Source: Termitidicoccus mucosus
GTDB taxonomy: Bacteria > Verrucomicrobiota > Verrucomicrobiia > Opitutales > Opitutaceae
Direction of reading: 5' to 3'
Length of the DNA stretch: 64,000 bases
Assembly (NCBI RefSeq): GCF_038725785.1
Contig: NZ_CP109796.1
Location: 4,650,001 to 4,714,000, forward strand
Positions 6,518-50,507 of the stretch are shown here, piece after piece. How positions within the stretch are numbered: position 1 is the stretch's first letter; each line of letters begins with the position of its first letter. The translations under genes were made by a program, and so were the position numbers. The notes under the pieces are model-generated. The model worked only from the letters and a program-made list of their open reading frames with translations. It searched no databases and was not told where the DNA came from.

Positions 6518-6711
6518 GGAAAAAGGCTGAAGAGCTGAAGGACTGAAGGCTGAAAGAGAATGGATCGGGATGCGGTTCGTAATGGGGGATGCCGCGCGGC
6601 GGGGCGAACGAATGAGTTGGCATTTGGAAGAAAGATGTCATGACAACTTGCCGGCGCGGAGCGCATCCGGGTTCCTTACTCCAATTCCGCACTCCGAAAT
6701 CCGCATTTCCC

Positions 6712-7783: not shown

Positions 7784-7916
7784 TCGTATCGCAGGCATCC
7801 CTGCCTGCCGTCGCCGGGAGGTCGCGCGAAGCACGGCATTTCTTTTTAAAAGAAGAAAGTCAGCGGCGCCACGCGCCTTTCTTTTTCGACGGCAGGCAGG
7901 GATGCCTGCGATACGA
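7784..7916. repeat. 130-nt palindromic element, family A copy 1
   Basis: The arms 7784-7813 and 7887-7916 are a perfect 30-bp inverted repeat. Each arm also contains internal symmetry (GCAGGCATCC against GGATGCCTGC). The interior carries an AT-rich TTTCTTTTTAAAAGAAGAAAG block flanked by GCGC-rich words. Two more copies with the same arms and related interior lie at 43094-43225 and 48095-48224. It encodes no protein of its own. Confidence 0.92.
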
Positions 7917-20428: not shown

Positions 20429-20473
20429 GTCCCCCACGCTACCAGAAGCCCGCCGGACGAGGAAGCGCGGGGC

Positions 20474-20501
20474 CGCTCAAACACTTCGCTCAATCGCTCA
20501 T
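20474..20501 (-). promoter_or_regulatory. 28-nt upstream element, copy 1
   Basis: This is a perfect 28-nt match, in inverted orientation, to 21651-21678. On the minus strand it reads towards the start of the 639-residue secreted protein gene. The element contains three GAGCG words, two of them within TTGAGCG 12 nt apart, like the direct half-sites bound by AraC-family proteins. It abuts the stop codon of the AraC gene. Operator function is inference. Confidence 0.6.
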
Positions 20502-21391
20502 CAGCGATGGAATCCGTATCGCCGCATTTTTTGTATCACACCGGATGATTCCTCGGGAAGCTGCCAGTGTCCTTGTATATTAACGGGTTTCCTATAAGGC
20601 GGCAATATGCCCTCCCGCCACACGGAGGGAGGCATTTTATAATGAAACTTGAATGCGCGGCTGAATTCGCCCGCGCCCGCGAAGCCGCACTGCTCCGCGA
20701 TGGCCGCGATGGTGTGGCTGGTCTCGCTGAGCAACTCCGCGGCGCGCTCCATCGCGACGCGCTGCAAAGCATCGCGCGGGCTCTCGTTTCGCACCTGCAT
20801 GAACAGCCGGCGCAGGTGGCTTGACGAGACTCCGGCGACACGCGCCGCCTGCGCGATGGCCGGCCGTTCCGGCAGGTGATCCTTGAAATACAGCATCGCC
20901 GTTTCGACCTTTTGCTCGGCGAGGCTGGCGAGCGTCGGCAGCCGGGTGGTGACCATGCCCTCAAGCGCGATCAGGGCGAGTTCCAGTTGCGCATATTGCT
21001 CATACAGAGGACTTAGTCTCATCGGTTTTTCGTAATGCGGTTTCAATTCCCGGGCGAGTCCCTCAATGCGCCGGGCCTGCGCCGGACTCAATTTGTGCTG
21101 CAGAAAACCGTGCTCGCGAGTAATTTCCGCCAGCAGTGGAAACACCACGCCAAAGTGCAGCACGACCGCCTTGCAGTGTCGTTTCTCGCCCACCCAGCCG
21201 TGTTTGTGTTCGGGCGGGAAAACCCAGATGGTGCCGGATTGCAATTCCGGTTTGCCCGGGCCCTCGCCGCCCGGGAGCAGCGGCGCGCACCGGCCGGAAA
21301 CCACCGCAAAAAATTCCCAGTTGGCGCGGGATTGAGGCGCCATGGGCTGTTGGCCATAATAACGAGAACCATGTCCGAGGTAACGCAGCAT
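20501..21391 (-). CDS. AraC-family transcriptional regulator
   Basis: A 296-residue regulator. The N-terminal ~160 residues form a cupin-like sensing domain (P-G-G-E-G-P-G-K-P-E-L-Q-S-G-T-I-W-V-F-P-P near residues 40-60). The C-terminal ~100 residues form the AraC double helix-turn-helix: A-R-V-A-G-V-S-S-S-H-L-R-R-L-F for the first helix pair, and I-A-A-I-A-E-Q-C-G-F then F-S-R-A-F-K for the second. It lies between two outward-reading genes of the polysaccharide locus. The identical 28-nt elements that flank it are candidate operators. The sensed ligand is probably a sugar derived from the target glycan. Confidence 0.92.
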   Translation of the reverse strand: MLRYLGHGSRYYGQQPMAPQSRANWEFFAVVSGRCAPLLPGGEGPGKPELQSGTIWVFPPEHKHGWVGEKRHCKAVVLHFGVVFPLLAEITREHGFLQHKLSPAQARRIEGLARELKPHYEKPMRLSPLYEQYAQLELALIALEGMVTTRLPTLASLAEQKVETAMLYFKDHLPERPAIAQAARVAGVSSSHLRRLFMQVRNESPRDALQRVAMERAAELLSETSHTIAAIAEQCGFAGAGEFSRAFKFHYKMPPSVWREGILPPYRKPVNIQGHWQLPEESSGVIQKMRRYGFHR

Positions 21392-21785
21392 GAAGAATAA
21401 TATAGACCGGGATATATAAAACGAGTCAAGATCGCGGGGCCGCCGGAGGCGCGGTTCGGGCCGGGAGTTCAGGCTTATGGTCGGTGGGAAAAGTTGTTCC
21501 CTTAAAACAGCAGGAGCATTCCGCTCGCGGGCGATGAAATGGGGATGTTTCGGATATCTTGAGAGGTTTCACAAGTATATGTTAATATTATAATTAAACA
21601 GAAAAATTAAACTTTGACTCTCGACCCGGACCGAGCCGGACACTCATCTTATGAGCGATTGAGCGAAGTGTTTGAGCGTGCCTGCGATTCCATTTTCAAG
21701 CCGGTCCTGCTATTTCTTTAATCCTGACGCACCCCAAATGTTTTGCTCCCGGCCATTCGCATTTGTGCCAGCGTTTTACCATCCC
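21392..21785. other. 394-bp gap with the SGNH gene promoter region
   Basis: No gene is visible. The middle (21571-21610) is AT-rich and would suit a promoter. The 28-nt element copy 2 follows at 21651-21678, 107 bp before the SGNH start. There is no Shine-Dalgarno sequence; the start is preceded by CATCCC. Confidence 0.6.
21651..21678 (+). promoter_or_regulatory. 28-nt upstream element, copy 2
   Basis: It is identical to the minus-strand copy at 20474-20501 and lies in the same orientation relative to its downstream gene, here the SGNH esterase. The match stops sharply at both ends, as expected for a maintained site rather than a long duplication. It is a candidate AraC-type operator. Confidence 0.6.
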
Positions 21786-36008: not shown

Positions 36009-36128
36009 AATAGGCGCAAAAAGCACTCTGCGAGTAGCCTGACAAAACAATCACTCAATCCCGTGCCTTTTGAGCCTCTTGCCAGGCCACTCGCTTCGCT
36101 CGTGGAGTGGCTATTAAAACCGAACCAT

Positions 36129-36210
36129 TTATCTCACACAAAGGCACGAAGGCACAAAGGAATGAATTATAACCCGGCGCTTTGTGCCTTCGTGCCTTTG
36201 TGTGAGATAA
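36129..36210. repeat. Palindromic element, family B copy 1
   Basis: The arms 36129-36158 and 36181-36210 are a perfect 30-bp inverted repeat built of TCTCACACAAAGGCAC words, with a 22-nt loop. The outside edges carry near-identical direct repeats of AAAACCGAACCATT type (one mismatch), as an insertion might leave. A second copy lies at 40347-40420 with the loop reversed. It could also terminate transcription of the 1,782-residue gene. Confidence 0.9.
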
Positions 36211-36229
36211 AAACCGAATCATTATTTTG

Positions 36230-37443: not shown

Positions 37444-37532
37444 TTTAGACAGAATGAACGGAATTTAAATAAATCAACAGAATAAATAATCCATTCTGTC
37501 CATTTTATTAAATTCCGTTCATTCTGTCTAAA
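37444..37532. repeat. Palindromic element, 24-bp perfect arms
   Basis: The arms 37444-37467 and 37509-37532 are a perfect 24-bp inverted repeat (TTTAGACAGAATGAACGG type). A smaller ACAGAAT/ATTCTGT pair sits inside, giving a nested hairpin. It fills most of the 251-bp gap after the URO-D-like gene. The remaining ~145 bp before the lyase start are AT-rich and probably hold its promoter. Confidence 0.9.
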
Positions 37533-37678: not shown

Positions 37679-40342
37679 ATGTTGATAAAAACAAACACCC
37701 TCTCCCTGTTCCTGCTGGCCGCTGCCGCGCTGGCCCTCGCACCAGTCGCCGCGCACGCGGCGGACGAGCCGGCTCTGGAAAACGAATATAAAAAGACGCA
37801 GCTCCGCTTTTTCCTCGAAAACGCCGCCCTCGCCGCCGAGGAAAACACCCAGGAAAAAACCGCCGAGGCCGTCGCCCGCCTGCGCATCCTGGCAAGGGAA
37901 TACCGCGACGCGCCCGCCCCGGATGTCGCGGACAGCAATACTTTCAGCCCACACAGCCGCCGCAATCCCCGCGCCCTCGCCCGGCACGATTTTTTTGTGT
38001 GGCGCTTCCTGTTCTCCGCCGCGGAGACACTCGCCGCGCGCGGCGAGCTGCCGGCCGATGTCCGGACAGGCATCGAGCCGGTGGCGCGCGAAAATGTCCG
38101 GCCCCGCGAGCGCGCGCCGAACAACCGCTCCTTCCATTTCGCGCTCGGCGCCATCTACGCGGCGAAACTGTTTCCCGCCGCGCCCGAGGCCGCCGTGTGG
38201 AAGGCCTACGCGAACGCCGTCTTCGACGACTGGCTGACCCTCGGCGACGCTTACGAGCCCGGCTACGTCGAGCCGTGGTTCCCGCCGCTGCTCGAACTCG
38301 GCCTCGCGCTCGGACGCGAGGCGGATTTGCGCGGCCCGGTCGCGCGCGCCATGTATGCGCGCCTGCGCGACCACGTGAGCGCCAGCGGCCTGGCCTGGAC
38401 GCCCGGCGACCCCGGCGACGGCGCCGACCAGAGCGCCTACATCGAGGGGCTTGCCCGCGCGGCGGAAATCACCGGCGACGGTTCGCTCCTCGGCGCCGCC
38501 CAGCGCGCGCTCCGCGCCACGCCGTCAAGCCGCAAAGGCTTCGCCCGGCTGGAGCGCTTCGTGAAGCATGCCACCGAAAAACTCGCCGCCGCCGGCGTGA
38601 GCCCGTCGCCCGCCCGCCCGCTCGCCGAAATCCAGCCGCTTTTCGCCGCCACCGGTCACCCTGCGCCGGATCGTCTCCTCCTCTCCAGCCCCGACGCGCC
38701 CGCCCGCCCTTACGCCGGATTTTATGCGATGGACCGCACGGAAACCCATCATCACGGGCACGAGGACACGCGCGGCGAGGTGTATCATTACGAGGCGGAC
38801 GGCGTGATGCTGCTGCGCCGCCCCGGCTGGATAAAATGGGCCGGTTGCGCCAACACCTTCGTCGTGGCCGACGAGACGGCGCAATTTCCCTTCGCCACCA
38901 CGCGCGGCCTCACGCCCGGCCGCTGGCTGGCGGGGTCCGCGCAAATCACCCCCATCCGCGACATCGTTGACACCGCCGCGTGGAAGCGCCTTGGCGGCGA
39001 GCCCGCCGAATACACCCAGCAGGCGATGAGCGATGTCGCGCGCGGCCTCGGTTACTCATGGATCAACATGTCCAGCTACACCGGCGCGCACGACACCGTG
39101 GAGCTGCGGAAAATAGTATTACGCTTCCTCGCCATCCCGGAAAAGGAAATGCTGGAGGCGGAGGCGGCGGGGAGCCACAGCCTGGGGACATTGTCCTTCG
39201 ATCCCGGCATGGCGTGGTATCGCGAATACCGCCCGGTCGCGCCCGCCGGACCCGACGGCACGCTGGAGTTTGTTGTTTCCGACTTCCGTCTCGCGGGCAT
39301 GGACGGCTCGCGGATGATCGCGGACTTCAACACCCTCCCGGAAGACATGACCGTCGTGCATTACGCGCCCGGCACGAGGGGAAAACCGGGACGCGTGGTG
39401 CCGCGCTCCGAGTGGGAAAAATGGCTGACCCTCGTGCCCGACACGCGCCCGGGAGTTTGTAACCTGATAGGCCGCAAGACCGCCGCCACCGCGCCGCGCA
39501 ACGTCCTGCGCGTGGTCTGCCCGCCGGGCCGGCTCGACCTCGTGTTTGCCCCCAGGCCCGAGCCGGTGGACATCGCCAAAACATTCCCGCGCGTCGAGCT
39601 CGATTATCAGGTGCGCACCCCCGACGCCACCTTGCTGCGCCTGCCCATCGCGCTTGAAATAAACGACCTCCACCCGCGCAGCATCTATCTCGACGGGCAG
39701 CAGGGCGGACACCTCGTCGCGAGCGCCGCCGCGCAGAAGGACGGCGACAGCTTCGGCGCGTTGACCTACGAAAACGTATATGCCGCGGGCGCGCTCTGGA
39801 CGCGGCGCATCGTGCTCACCCGTGAGGGCATCATGCTCGTGGTGGATGAATACACGGCGGACAAACACCAGGGCCGCATGGCCGGCGGCCCGGTGTGGCA
39901 ACTGGCCGCGCCGCCGGTGTCCGGGTTGAATTGGTTTTCCGCCCCGTCGGAGACCGACCCGGAAAAAAGCCTGCTGGTATGGTTTCATCCGGAGGCGGGC
40001 GTGGAATACGGCGCGCAGTTTCAGCCGAAGCTGATGGGCGAGCAGAATTACGCCGTCTTTGCGAAAGGTCTCCTGCCGCCCGGGGGCGTGCGGCGTTTTG
40101 TCACCGTGCTCGTTCCGCACGACACGGCCGTTTCGCCCGCGGAAATCACCGGGCTGAAAAACCGCAACATGCGTCTTCTGGATGTGCCGCCCTCAAGGGC
40201 CGGCGTGCAAACCGAGGTTTCACCCGACGGCGCCGTTTCCGCCCGCATCGCCCCGCGCGTCAAGGACTGGCCGCATGGCCAGATCCTGATCAAAGTGTCG
40301 CCGGACAATGCCGCATGGTCGGTGAGCCGGAAAAAGAAATAG
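37679..40342 (+). CDS. Secreted heparinase II/III-like lyase
   Basis: 887 residues with a signal peptide (L-F-L-L-A-A-A-A-L-A-L-A-P-V-A-A-H-A-A). Residues 30-340 form a helical toroid and residues 340-880 a beta-rich part. The segment T-E-T-H-H-H-G-H-E-D near residue 360 followed by V-Y-H-Y-E-A-D-G-V-M-L resembles the heparinase II/III domain, where a His between two beta strands serves catalysis. Enzymes of this group cleave uronic-acid polysaccharides by beta-elimination and yield the unsaturated ends that GH105/GH88 enzymes remove. It closes the locus, followed by the repeat array at 40347. Substrate (pectic, alginate-like or glycosaminoglycan) cannot be decided. The DNA near 39458 contains half of the palindrome found in the GH95-like gene. 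Confidence 0.75.
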   Translation: MLIKTNTLSLFLLAAAALALAPVAAHAADEPALENEYKKTQLRFFLENAALAAEENTQEKTAEAVARLRILAREYRDAPAPDVADSNTFSPHSRRNPRALARHDFFVWRFLFSAAETLAARGELPADVRTGIEPVARENVRPRERAPNNRSFHFALGAIYAAKLFPAAPEAAVWKAYANAVFDDWLTLGDAYEPGYVEPWFPPLLELGLALGREADLRGPVARAMYARLRDHVSASGLAWTPGDPGDGADQSAYIEGLARAAEITGDGSLLGAAQRALRATPSSRKGFARLERFVKHATEKLAAAGVSPSPARPLAEIQPLFAATGHPAPDRLLLSSPDAPARPYAGFYAMDRTETHHHGHEDTRGEVYHYEADGVMLLRRPGWIKWAGCANTFVVADETAQFPFATTRGLTPGRWLAGSAQITPIRDIVDTAAWKRLGGEPAEYTQQAMSDVARGLGYSWINMSSYTGAHDTVELRKIVLRFLAIPEKEMLEAEAAGSHSLGTLSFDPGMAWYREYRPVAPAGPDGTLEFVVSDFRLAGMDGSRMIADFNTLPEDMTVVHYAPGTRGKPGRVVPRSEWEKWLTLVPDTRPGVCNLIGRKTAATAPRNVLRVVCPPGRLDLVFAPRPEPVDIAKTFPRVELDYQVRTPDATLLRLPIALEINDLHPRSIYLDGQQGGHLVASAAAQKDGDSFGALTYENVYAAGALWTRRIVLTREGIMLVVDEYTADKHQGRMAGGPVWQLAAPPVSGLNWFSAPSETDPEKSLLVWFHPEAGVEYGAQFQPKLMGEQNYAVFAKGLLPPGGVRRFVTVLVPHDTAVSPAEITGLKNRNMRLLDVPPSRAGVQTEVSPDGAVSARIAPRVKDWPHGQILIKVSPDNAAWSVSRKKK

Positions 40343-40346
40343 TTCT

Positions 40347-40420
40347 TTATCTCACACCAAGGCACAAAGTGCCGGGTTATACTTCATTCCTTTGTGTCTT
40401 GGTGCCTTGGTGTGAGATAA
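40347..40420. repeat. Palindromic element, family B copy 2 (loop reversed)
   Basis: The outer arms begin and end with the TTATCTCACAC word of the copy at 36129. The left arm lacks about 8 nt present in the right arm. The loop is close to the reverse complement of the loop in copy 1, so this copy sits in the opposite orientation. It begins 4 bp after the lyase stop codon. Confidence 0.85.
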
Positions 40421-40433
40421 ATGGTTCGTTTTT

Positions 40434-40510
40434 ATTTAATCACGGATAAGGGAAAGATTTGGGACACCGTTGGTTTTATCCGTGCTCATCCGTGTAATCC
40501 GTGGTTAAAT
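40434..40510. repeat. Inverted repeat of the ACGGATAA/ATCCGTG type
   Basis: Short arms at 40434-40447 (ATTTAATCACGGAT) and 40497-40510 enclose repeated ATCCGTG words. It is joined on both sides by an ATGGTTCG linker also seen beside the neighbouring elements, and is the second member of a tandem array of repeats that fills 40347-40672. No gene is present. Confidence 0.7.
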
Positions 40511-43093: not shown

Positions 43094-43225
43094 GCGTAGC
43101 GCAGGCATCCTGCCTGCCGTCAAAACCAAAGGCGCGCAGCGCCGCTGATTCTCTTTCCAGAAAAAGAAGGCCGCACTTTGCTCGATAAAAATATTCGACG
43201 GCAGGCAAGGATGCCTGAGCTACGC
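43094..43225. repeat. 130-nt palindromic element, family A copy 2
   Basis: The same arms as at 7784-7916 with two differences (left 43094-43121, right 43198-43225). The interior is in the opposite orientation relative to copies 1 and 3 (GGCGCGCAGCGCCGCTGA first, GGCCGCACTTTGC later). It is intergenic. Confidence 0.9.
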
Positions 43226-47364: not shown

Positions 47365-47470
47365 TCGGATTGCATTGCCAGCCGGCATCGCAAACATTGG
47401 GGGAGAGCTATCCTACCAGCGTGACTTTGCATTTATACCATCTCCGAACCCTTTATAGACTCATCAAGGC

Positions 47471-47520
47471 AGGGCGAAACCTCCGGCCGAGCCGCGGCTC
47501 GGCGAGGACGCCTCGCCCTA
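47471..47520. repeat. GC-rich palindrome of the AGGGCGA/TCGCCCT type
   Basis: An interrupted palindrome centred on GAGCCGCGGCTC, with imperfect outer arms AGGGCGAAACCTCC and GGACGCCTCGCCCT. It stands between the terminator and the start of the membrane-TPR gene. The rest of the 306-bp gap shows no gene. Confidence 0.75.
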
Positions 47521-47597
47521 CCAAATATAAATTTCGTTCGGAATTGATATTGGTCTAAAATCAAAGGGACTCTTGGTCTTATTTCCAAAAGGACGAC

Positions 47598-50291
47598 ATG
47601 AGCAAACAACGCGCAGGCCGGAAGCGGAAGAGGACAGACGCGGATGCGGCGCCCGGACTGGTTGCACCGGATGCATCACCGGGGAGGAACGATCACGGGC
47701 ATGGGCGATGGCATGGATTTTTAGTCGTGGTTTTGGTGATTGCGGTTTGCGTGGCTTGGGCAAACACGCTGCGCGCGCCGTTTGTGCTGGATGACGGGGA
47801 ATCGATCGTCACCAATGCGAGCATCCGTGATTTTTGGTCGCTGCGCTGGCTGAATCCACCGGCAGAGATGGGCGAGACCGTGAGCGGCCGGCCGGTGTTG
47901 AATCTTTCCTTCGCGGTGAATTATGCGTTGGGCGGACTGGATGTGCGGGGATATCATCTGGGCAACATGCTCATCCACGCGGCGGCGGCGCTGGTTTTGT
48001 TTGGCGTGGCGCGGCGGGTGTTGTCGCAGTGCGGTTCCGAACGAAGCGGCACGCCTGCCGCGAGGGCGGAGCGCGACAGCGCGGAGGAGCCGGGCCGTAG
48101 CGCAGGCATCCCTGCCTGCCGTCCGAGGGCGATCGCGCGAAGCGCGGCATTTGTTTTTTGGAAAAAGATCAGCGGCGCTTCGCGCCAAGAATTTTCGACG
48201 GCAGGCAGGATGCCTGCGCTACGGGGCTGGTGCGCGTCCTACGGTGAACGGCTTTCCGAAGCCGGCGCGGCTGGGCTGGCGTTTGCGATGGCGTTGCTGT
48301 GGGCGCTGCATCCATTGCAGACCGCGGCGGTCACCTATGTGGCGCAGCGGGCGGAGTCGCTGGCGGGGTTGTTTTATTTGCTCACGTTGTATTGCTTCAT
48401 CCGGGCGGCGGAGACGGGGGATTCGGCAGATCGGGTGGCACGGGCGACCCGCCCGTGGGATTGCGACGCGGAGCGTCGTCAGCATGGGCGAGTCGCCCAT
48501 GCCACGCAGACCCATGGGCTGGCGGACCGTGCGGCGGCGCGCGGGGCGCGCTGGTGGGGCGCGCTGGCGGTGACGGCGTGCGCGCTGGGCATGGGGACGA
48601 AAGAGACGGTGGTCACGGCGCCGTTGGTCGCGCTGTTGCTGGACCGGGCGTTTTTTGCGGGATCGTTTCGCGAGGCCTGGCGGCGGCGCTGGCGGCTTTA
48701 TGGCGGGCTGGCGGCGACATGGCTGCTGCTGGGCGCGCTGGTGTTGTCCAACACCGGTCGCGGCGGTTCGGCGGGGCTCGGCTCGGAGATCGGCGCATGG
48801 GGCTATTTGCTCACGCAGTGCGGGGCGATTGTGCGTTATCTGGGGCTGGCTTGCTGGCCGGCGTCGCTGGTGTTCGATCATGGCACGCCGGTCGCGGCGG
48901 GGCCGGGCGCGGTGTGGTGGCAGGCGCTGTTGTTGTGTGCGCTGGCGGCGGGGACGCTGCGGGCGTTGTGGCGGAATCACGCGGCGGGATTTCTGGGCGC
49001 GTGGTTTTTCCTGATGCTCGCGCCGAGCTCGAGTTTCGTGCCGGTGTCGACGCAGACCGTGGCGGAGCATCGCATGTATCTGGCGCTGGCTGCGGTGGTG
49101 GCGCTGGCGTGCGCGGGAGCATGGCGGGTACTGGCGTGGGTTTGCGGCATGGGGGCGCAACGCGGCGGCGGCAACAATGCGATTCCCAAGGCTTTTCAGC
49201 CCTTCAGTCCCTCAGCCTTTCGGCCTTTGCTCTGGGCGGCGCTGGTGTGCGCGGCAGCGGCGTTGGGCGCGGTGACGGTGGCGCGAAACGCGGTGTATCG
49301 CACGGCGGTGTCGCTTTGGTCGGACACGGTGGAAAAACGTCCGGACAATCCGCGCGCGCGCAACAACCTCGGGGCGGCGCTCTCGGCGGAAGGGCGGACG
49401 GCGGAGGCGGCGGAGCAGTTTCGCCGGGCGATCGCGTTGCGGCCGAATCATGCGTTTGCCCATTTCAACCTTGGCGTGGCGTTGATGCTTGATCCGCGTG
49501 CCGCGCTCGATGCCGTCGCGGCAGAGAGGGGAAACGGGACGCCGCCGGACGCCGCCGCTCTGCGCGCCGAGGCGGTCCGGCAGGCCGAGCATCATTTCCG
49601 CGCGGCGCTGGCGGCCGAGCCCGGCAACACGGACGCGTGCGTGAATCTCGGCAAGCTGCTCGCCGACTCGGGCCGGACGGCGGAGGCGATGGAGCACTAC
49701 CGCTCGGCTCTGGCCGGCGACCCGGCGGCGCAGGATGCGCGGGTGAACCTGGCGGCATTGCTCGTTGCCGACGGACGCGAGGCGGAGGGCGCGGCGTTGC
49801 TGCGCGAGGCGCTGGCGGCGGAACCGGGGCTGGCGGAGGCGCATTATCAGATGGGTTTGGTGTTGGAAAAAAGCGGCGCGCGCCGCGAGGCCGAGGCGGA
49901 GTTTCGCGCCGCCGTGCGGCTCAAGCCGGGCATGGCGGCGGCCCACCTCGCGCTGGGCAACTGCCTCGCGCGGCGAGGCGATGCGGGAGCCGAGTCGTGC
50001 TATCGCGAGGCGCTTCGGCTCGATCCGAAACTCGCCGAGGCATGGTATGCGCTGGGCAACGGATTCGCGAAACAGGAACGGTTTGCCGATGCGATGGACG
50101 CCTACCGCAAGGCGATCCAGCTCGATCCCGCGCATGTGCAGGCGCTCAACAATCTCGGCAACTGCCAGCTCGTGACCGGGCGCGTGCGCGAGGCGGTGGA
50201 GACCTACGAGGAAGTGCTGCGCCGACGTCCCGGCGACGCGACGGTGCGGCAGAATCTCGACTACGCGAAGGAACTGCTGGGGGCGCGCTGA
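47598..50291 (+). CDS. Membrane protein with C-terminal TPRs (TMTC/GT-C-like), containing repeat elements
   Basis: 897 residues. An N-terminal charged stretch is followed by about ten hydrophobic segments with F-V-L-D-D-G-E-S-I-V near residue 62 and G-R-P-V-L-N-L-S-F near residue 98, as in TMTC/PMT-like (GT-C fold) membrane proteins. From about residue 575 there are eight or so tetratricopeptide repeats (A-R-N-N-L-G-A-A-L, A-C-V-N-L-G-K-L-L, A-W-Y-A-L-G-N-G-F, A-L-N-N-L-G-N-C-Q). Glycosyl transfer at the membrane is plausible, not shown. Three repeat-like DNA segments are read in frame between membrane segments or before the TPRs: a family A palindrome at 48095-48224, a second palindrome at 48435-48505, and a CTTCAGTCCCTCAGCC-type word block at 49189-49228. 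The frame is intact. Confidence 0.82.
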   Translation: MSKQRAGRKRKRTDADAAPGLVAPDASPGRNDHGHGRWHGFLVVVLVIAVCVAWANTLRAPFVLDDGESIVTNASIRDFWSLRWLNPPAEMGETVSGRPVLNLSFAVNYALGGLDVRGYHLGNMLIHAAAALVLFGVARRVLSQCGSERSGTPAARAERDSAEEPGRSAGIPACRPRAIARSAAFVFWKKISGASRQEFSTAGRMPALRGWCASYGERLSEAGAAGLAFAMALLWALHPLQTAAVTYVAQRAESLAGLFYLLTLYCFIRAAETGDSADRVARATRPWDCDAERRQHGRVAHATQTHGLADRAAARGARWWGALAVTACALGMGTKETVVTAPLVALLLDRAFFAGSFREAWRRRWRLYGGLAATWLLLGALVLSNTGRGGSAGLGSEIGAWGYLLTQCGAIVRYLGLACWPASLVFDHGTPVAAGPGAVWWQALLLCALAAGTLRALWRNHAAGFLGAWFFLMLAPSSSFVPVSTQTVAEHRMYLALAAVVALACAGAWRVLAWVCGMGAQRGGGNNAIPKAFQPFSPSAFRPLLWAALVCAAAALGAVTVARNAVYRTAVSLWSDTVEKRPDNPRARNNLGAALSAEGRTAEAAEQFRRAIALRPNHAFAHFNLGVALMLDPRAALDAVAAERGNGTPPDAAALRAEAVRQAEHHFRAALAAEPGNTDACVNLGKLLADSGRTAEAMEHYRSALAGDPAAQDARVNLAALLVADGREAEGAALLREALAAEPGLAEAHYQMGLVLEKSGARREAEAEFRAAVRLKPGMAAAHLALGNCLARRGDAGAESCYREALRLDPKLAEAWYALGNGFAKQERFADAMDAYRKAIQLDPAHVQALNNLGNCQLVTGRVREAVETYEEVLRRRPGDATVRQNLDYAKELLGAR
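48095..48224. repeat. 130-nt palindromic element, family A copy 3, inside a gene
   Basis: The arms 48095-48123 and 48196-48224 match the arms of the intergenic copies. The interior has the same GCGCGAAGCGCGGCATTT and TCAGCGGCGC blocks as copy 1. It lies wholly in the membrane-TPR coding sequence and contains no stop in the reading frame used, adding about 43 residues (S-A-G-I-P-A-C-R ... A-G-R-M-P-A-L-R). Confidence 0.92.
48435..48505. repeat. Second in-gene palindrome (CACGGGCGA type)
   Basis: The 23-nt arms 48435-48457 and 48483-48505 are inverted copies with a few changes, and each arm is itself palindromic (CACGGGCGACCCGCCCGTG). It is translated in frame as a hydrophilic loop of the membrane-TPR protein, about 210 bp after the family A copy. 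Confidence 0.85.
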
Positions 50292-50507
50292 GCACCCCGG
50301 TGCCCCGTCGTCCGCACTATTGCCGACCGCCACCGCCGAATCAAACCCCCACGTCCGCCCGCTCGGTGGCGGCATCCGGTCCTAGGGTGCCAACGGATGC
50401 GGATTACTTCTCAGGCGACTGGATGGCCCAGCGATTTTACAGCGCGCCAGAGTGGTGCATTTTGGCCTCCTCCTTGATACCCGCGCTCGATCAGGGGAGA
50501 ACCGGGT

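Follow-up and report, generated by a model that had tools for sequence, protein, structure and literature searches.

How does a dispersed, non-coding palindrome come to be read as part of a protein, and what becomes of it afterwards? A 64,000-nucleotide stretch of the Termitidicoccus mucosus genome (the window; G000:C1:4650001-4714000, from a 7.92-Mb Opitutaceae genome in 2 contigs) raises this question through a palindromic segment, element A, inside an open gene for an 897-aa protein. Element A is very probably a GTAG-tagged, head-to-head dimer of repetitive extragenic palindromic (REP) sequences, of the bacterial interspersed mosaic element (BIME) or REPIN (REP doublet forming hairpin) type. 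It would have been inserted in frame before the window lineage split from that of the termite-gut metagenome-assembled genome (MAG) Ct408_bin80, and would lengthen a loop of the protein neutrally or nearly so.

47598..50291, plus strand: 897-aa host gene of the insertions (open reading frame (ORF) call, tetratricopeptide repeat (TPR) families from Pfam, hydropathy)
48095..48224, plus strand: element A, head-to-head REP dimer, residues 166-209, in loop 1 (fold, copies, consensus, hydropathy)
48097..48119, plus strand: left REP, with GTAG foot at 48097-48100 and hairpin GCAGGC-ATCCCT-GCCTGC at 48102-48119 (sequence, core motif)
48134..48188, limits approximate, no strand: inner complementary stretch of element A, GCGCGAAGCGC ... 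GCGCTTCGCGC (fold, conserved columns)
48201..48222, minus strand: right REP, inverted, with hairpin at 48201-48217 and GTAG foot at 48219-48222 (sequence, core motif)

The plus-strand ORF at 47598-50291 has no stop where it crosses element A, a near-perfect 130-bp palindrome (43.3 codons) that is stop-free in the host-gene frame and touches residues 166-209, GRSAGIPACRPRAIARSAAFVFWKKISGASRQEFSTAGRMPALR. Both inverted hairpins carry the core GCAGGC-ATCC(C)T-GCCTGC, around the inner complementary stretch, and the fold is far stronger than that of shuffled sequences (RNA z -9.45; DNA z -10.1, with 0 of 200 shuffles as good). Hydrophobic stretches at residues 120-138 and 219-237 (Kyte-Doolittle) bracket the element's peptide. 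The open frame, the fold and the hydropathy bear out a preliminary description of this DNA, which had placed here a stop-free palindrome adding about 43 residues between membrane segments, the first of three repeats in one open frame of the same protein; the frame does hold all three. A known RNA family was rejected for this region, as Rfam gave 0 matches above the gathering score over 47400-50400, with two microRNA hairpins below threshold (28.2 of 160 and 21.9 of 76 bits).

Element A is a member of a dispersed family (family A). Best-strand identity to it is 78-100% at 40 genome places (best 40 of 176 candidates), and a genome-wide count of the REP core GCAGGCATCn(0-4)TGCCTGC gives 52 forward and 53 reverse occurrences, against 0 and 0 for the reversed-pattern control. 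The copy set comprises 78 distinct places, two duplicates from overlapping loci having been dropped, and 64 of the 78, each at least 112 bp long, fit one consensus with inverted ends and the tags outside (head-head). In 40 aligned copies the first G of the GTAG tag is invariant, and T, A and G are each at least 90% conserved. A covariance model of the family gives at least 148 genome matches with both strands counted (best 150 of 8542 candidates); 15 further places from this model raised the number examined to 93. Family A thus has the features that define GTAG REPs: a terminal tag, a high dispersed copy number, head-head dimers and a mostly intergenic location. Within the window, further copies lie at 7785-7915 and 43095-43224, neither clearly intragenic.

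The history of the insertion can be read from two relatives. Among the 150 genomes searched, that of the window included, only the MAGs Ct408_bin80 and Nm470_bin120 belong to the same genus, and both carry the host gene at full length (L038, G077:C223 and L039, G046:C646, respectively). In the Ct408 orthologue, GAGIPARRLFGGARRAALVFWEKIGGVSREGFSRAG aligns where the window protein has SAGIPACRPRAIARSAAFVFWKKISGASRQEFSTAG. This segment scores 92 against the family A consensus, compared with maxima of 34 in 500 codon shuffles and 32 in 263 other windows of the contig, and a covariance model built without the Ct408 copy matches the same site (G077:C223:2456-2587, E 7.1e-8). Of the 64 copies, that of the window comes nearest to the Ct408 copy in the variable columns (0.55; next 0.51), and the two share 12 non-consensus states, including the outermost base. 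Taken together, the family match, the nearest-copy relation and the shared states make one insertion common to the window and Ct408 lineages the simplest reading of the alignments. The Ct408 copy has kept its frame open and lost its hairpin (DNA z +0.52 versus -10.1 in the window).

Nm470 lacks the element. Its loop 1 holds no trace of element A (score 22, versus a shuffle 95% level of 27) and has an unrelated glycine-rich filler instead. Searched with element A at E 0.001, the Nm470 genome gives no match, and the covariance model finds 10 weaker matches there, the best at 2.1e-7. The expectation that orthologues would lack exactly the repeat segments was therefore not borne out, as Ct408 keeps a decayed copy and Nm470 has different filler.

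A mechanism that would account for this history involves a REP-associated tyrosine transposase (RAYT). Such an HUH/Y1 transposase would move the REP dimer as single-stranded hairpin DNA into the gene, in this case in the ancestor common to the window and Ct408_bin80 lineages. Most intragenic insertions would be lost, and the survivors would be those that contain no stop, add a whole number of codons once their junctions are counted, and lie in an unconstrained linker. After insertion, the palindrome may erode with the frame still open and become ordinary coding sequence, as in Ct408. We infer that a RAYT was the mover, that the segment is translated in vivo and that its peptide is neutral.

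The genome contains 7 Y1_Tnp matches, one candidate being a RAYT-like transposase (L119, also L145; G000:C1:1040824-1041627; 268-aa reading, start assumed) with a motif, picked out by eye, that we take to be HUH. Inside both ends of its reading lies GCCGGCATCCTGCCGGC, a REP variant with a GCCGGC stem that differs from the A core; because these REPs fall within its own coding ends, the protein termini read SAGILPAV and CRQDAGAPS. Element A may have been mobilised by this enzyme. GCCGGC-stem REPs number 55 in its own genome, 23 in Ct408 (G077) and 2 in Nm470 (G046). REPs of the GGCACGGGCATC type number 65+67 in G005, 18+17 in G003, 1 in the genome of the window and 0 in Ct408 and Nm470. Among the five RAYT loci of relatives that were scanned, two (L146, L147) are bracketed by GTGG REPs and one (L151) has GTAG REPs on a single side; the finder, with a background of 0.47 hits per kb, detected no REP at a further RAYT locus of the window's own genome (L152).

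Several results weigh against a RAYT-borne, in-frame insertion shared with Ct408. Firstly, among the motif positions listed, no exact A-type REP lies near the 7 Y1_Tnp matches, and an A-type REP as flank of the candidate transposase was rejected, as its ends score 30 and 38, below the 56 that marks the 99% level of random windows from element-enriched loci; what speaks for this enzyme is the exact GCCGGC-stem motif at both of its ends. In the two closest relatives, the same finder detected no REP at the RAYT loci (L148, L149). Secondly, loop 1 measures about 88, 99 and 72 aa in the window, Ct408 and Nm470, and these lengths differ by something other than exactly 43 residues or the element, since Nm470 lacks element A and has other filler. 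Thirdly, the protein tree joins the window and Ct408 weakly (81/74), and the comparison consists of two same-genus genomes, both incomplete MAGs (68% and 72% complete). Finally, AlphaFold gives a predicted local distance difference test (pLDDT) score under 50 for residues 1-563, too low to inform on the membrane part.

Outside the insertions, the gene is constrained. Between the window and Ct408, with loops masked, the gene core has a non-synonymous rate (dN) of 0.046 and a synonymous rate (dS) of 0.222 over 677 codons (dN/dS about 0.21). Element A has dN 0.268 and dS 0.431 over 37 codons (about 0.6), and the loop flank dN 0.335 and dS 0.240 over 25 codons (about 1.4). On the window lineage, codon changes outside the loops are 34 synonymous versus 16 non-synonymous. 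From dN and dS in core, element and flank, the gene core is under purifying selection, and the inserted loop is hardly, or not clearly, constrained at the protein level. Loop 1 is also hugely variable in length: in 20 of the 21 other homologues parsed it measures about 10-40 aa, the exception being L012 (66). These lengths come from 27 loci (L011-L037), 6 of which were omitted (L026 and L029, no row; L011, misparsed; L027, L028 and L030, anchorless). With the gene intact, under purifying selection and this variable in its loop, the earlier suggestion of a tolerated loop lengthening is supported.

A different explanation, which we regard as possible rather than probable, is that the palindrome is kept for a function in DNA or RNA (transcript attenuation, or binding of gyrase or RAYT) or by homogenisation through gene conversion, with translation as a side effect. 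It draws on a test of 91 columns, each of them conserved in 85% or more of the remaining 63 family A copies; the window copy departs at 3 of these columns and the Ct408 copy at 25. Lineage-specific changes in the gene core number 60 in the window and 94 in Ct408 (Fisher p 0.004 against 3:25), and third-position changes 39 and 43 (p 0.0006 against 3:25). Stricter columns give ratios of 2:16 (p 0.02 and 0.007) and 0:10 (p 0.014 and 0.004). By simple arithmetic, about 20 changes would be expected over 91 neutral sites at dS 0.22; 28 are seen, nearly all one-sided. The window lineage has thus retained the palindrome that Ct408 has lost, and renewal, gene conversion or selection could account for this.

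The same contrast, however, comes from one locus and one lineage pair, and it cannot decide the matter. The consensus is drawn from the genome of the window, where other copies depart at a median of 4 columns (range 0-13); since 3 departures are ordinary there, it is the Ct408 copy that is the outlier. In Ct408, the best of the remaining A copies departs at 11, and A-type BLAST matches in that genome fall at 4 places (best 40 of 63 candidates). A different starting sequence in Ct408 could also produce the 3:25 contrast, as the 23 GCCGGC-stem motifs of that genome suggest that its copy may have begun from another sequence, and replacement of the window copy by a fresh one is possible as well. 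Compared among themselves, the copies agree at 90% in conserved columns and 39% in variable ones, a contrast that is partly circular because the columns were picked by conservation. We offer only tentatively, and with some doubt, the idea that selection, RAYT-dependent renewal or gene conversion preserves a REP palindrome as DNA within a translated gene of one lineage, and that in a sister lineage, where another REP type is mainly used, the orthologous copy has lost its hairpin and kept its reading frame. If this were true, a coding copy would be a reporter of genome-wide, trans-acting upkeep of REP sequences. Should such upkeep be confirmed, comparing coding copies between orthologues could tell selection or conversion that acts on REPs as DNA apart from constraint on the protein, a distinction beyond the reach of intergenic copies.

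It is very unlikely that the peptide of element A has a selected function in the protein, for example as a basic cytoplasmic loop. Its 9 basic residues and 1 acidic residue are as expected of such a loop, and 22 of its 37 residues (0.595) are retained in Ct408; the ratios given above for element and adjacent loop, based on few codons, nevertheless exceed that of the core, and Nm470 manages without the element.

Nor does family A behave as a set of coding elements; the preliminary description had likened its tolerated, protein-lengthening insertions to the Rickettsia palindromic elements (RPEs). Family A copies are clearly intragenic at only 2 of the 93 places, the window gene and L100 (3440-3562), and at 0 of the 15 added places; the calls rest on codon scores of 240-bp flanks, with spanning ORFs inspected by eye, not by homology. 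Further spanning ORFs, among them those at L078, L055, L112, L096, L093 and L107, had the look of 5' extensions or of antisense frames and were left uncounted. In L100, the copy lies between an apparent signal peptide (by eye) and the body of a large protein. The orthologue L130 (90% identity over query residues 101-1208) lacks the element, and by eye L100 has about 69 extra residues, about 41 of which are element.

Selfish elements of RPE type, adapted to coding insertion and with a preferred open frame, are therefore a very unlikely explanation, even though the reading frames lend it something. Of 384 combinations of a frame with a copy, 153 are stop-free, more than in any of 100 dinucleotide shuffles (mean 124, maximum 146). 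Counted in register from GTAG to CTAC in 59 of the 64 copies (5 omitted for a gap at the anchor), two frames of the plus strand are free of stops in most copies (45 and 39), the others being open in 26, 21, 6 and 3. However, the coding copies of L100 and the window do not share a starting frame, L100 using the first and the window the second of these plus-strand frames, and the lengths between the same anchors divide evenly modulo 3 (20, 20 and 19 of 59), with no bias towards multiples of three. From the stop-free fraction and the even lengths, roughly one insertion in seven could leave a frame open. An assembly artefact or a non-functional gene is extremely improbable: the close relatives are incomplete MAGs, and beyond that no support was found, whereas the genome stands in 2 contigs, the frame is full-length in the window and both orthologues, and synonymous changes prevail outside the loops on the window lineage.

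Insertions of this kind have published precedents. Intragenic GTAG-tagged REPs were published in 2013 by Di Nocera, De Gregorio and Rocco (PMC3733652) and were most numerous in Opitutus terrae among the genomes surveyed. The present elements resemble those of O. terrae in the GTAG terminal tag, the short stem, the head-to-head dimers, the location within ORFs and the repeated insertion in one ORF, and the GTGG variant of the tag recalls GTAG-20 of that species; elements A and B (the latter described below) are classed here by tag and architecture. The present case differs from that report in that coding copies are 2 of 93 and the insertion is dated by orthologues. REPINs consist of two inverted REPs that form one long hairpin and are dispersed, mostly extragenic and connected with RAYTs (Bertels and Rainey 2011, PMC3116915; PMC8049555). 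Family A shares the inverted REP pair, the dispersal, the mostly extragenic location and the presence of RAYT-like genes in the genome; unlike in REPINs, the nearest RAYT carries a variant stem, and an exact A-type flank was not found among the listed positions.

In R. conorii, ORFs contain nearly half of all RPEs (PMC10969869), and RPE-4 and RPE-6 are CGTC-tagged repeats (PMC3733652). Element A resembles RPEs as a palindrome of similar size (130 bp here, about 150 bp there) in frame inside a functional gene. It differs from RPE-4 and RPE-6 in its GTAG tag, and family A differs from RPEs, which often lie in ORFs and encode a conserved peptide, in the rarity of its coding copies. The comparison with RPEs is thus apt for the outcome and not for membership, with the mostly open frames mildly in its favour. 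As intragenic GTAG REPs are already in print, what is new here is the insertion history, the second gene with an empty orthologue, and the palindrome kept in one lineage and decayed in another. No report of this particular locus was found in the literature covered, which excludes most subscription journals. A single gene provides a tree-placed case of a mobile non-coding palindrome becoming protein sequence, with the element intact in one lineage, decayed and still in frame in another, and missing from a third.

The host protein consists of 11 hydrophobic segments (Kyte-Doolittle) followed by TPR repeats (Pfam). In its motifs, the membrane part is presumably similar to the TMTC glycosyltransferases of eukaryotes. 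A sequence search of residues 1-601 against solved structures in the PDB returned two weak matches (best E 0.033), and none of the 25 best NCBIfam matches (of 27) reaches the cut-off that would name the 897-aa protein. Immediately upstream of the gene, at 47471-47524, lies a REP-like palindromic block with GTAGGGCGAGGCGTCCTCGCC on the minus strand, the core of which has only one match in the 669 kb of examined loci.

Two further repeats are read through by the same frame.

48435..48505, plus strand: element B, GTGG-tagged REP dimer, residues 280-303, in loop 2 (fold, orthologues, dispersal, hydropathy)
49189..49228, plus strand: block C, low-copy non-palindromic repeat, residues 531-544, in loop 3 (fold, orthologues, copies, hydropathy)

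Element B, previously described as a second palindrome, proves to be a dispersed, GTGG-tagged REP dimer with a strong fold (z -5.23; 0 of 200 shuffles); one hairpin arm reads CACGGGC and the other CATGGGC. Sixteen GTGG-type half-elements like it occur in the 669 kb of examined loci. It was not seen in the Ct408 and Nm470 orthologues, so that of the three genes only that of the window has it. Block C was rightly called repeat-like, as its core TTTCAGCCYTTCAG has 7 genome occurrences against 0 for the reversed control, and it is no palindrome (z -0.45, no hairpin). It is present in the Ct408 orthologue and absent from that of Nm470. Block C would therefore also have arrived before the split, element B being seen in the window lineage only. 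One block similar to C lies at 6522-6555 of the window. In L071 (4021-4081), a B-type REP dimer sits in frame inside a fused substrate-binding/permease transporter, and the G005 orthologue of L071 (L138) has an unrelated insert where L071 has the dimer.

A REP-like single hairpin in loop 2 of Nm470 was set aside as a lead only, because the motif GGCACGGGCATCn(0-3)TGCCCGTG has 0 copies in that genome; its fold is not exceptional (z -1.15). Loop 2 of three homologues from other genera (L023, L012 and L016) contains unrelated extra sequence, which in L023 looks internally repeated (VCHPLDDNPPS...VCHLMDDKPP). Loop 2 of these homologues may be a general landing site for repeats.

Other repeats of the window lie apart from the gene. 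An inverted pair at 36115-36226 and 40331-40434 (80 nt at 91%, on CACAAAGGCACGAAGGCAC) represents another palindrome family. A hairpin at 37444-37532 has 40-nt arms, 90% complementary, around a 9-nt loop, and an inverted 44-nt repeat with 89% identity and the core CAAACACTTCGCTCAATCGCTCAT joins 20461-20504 and 21648-21691.

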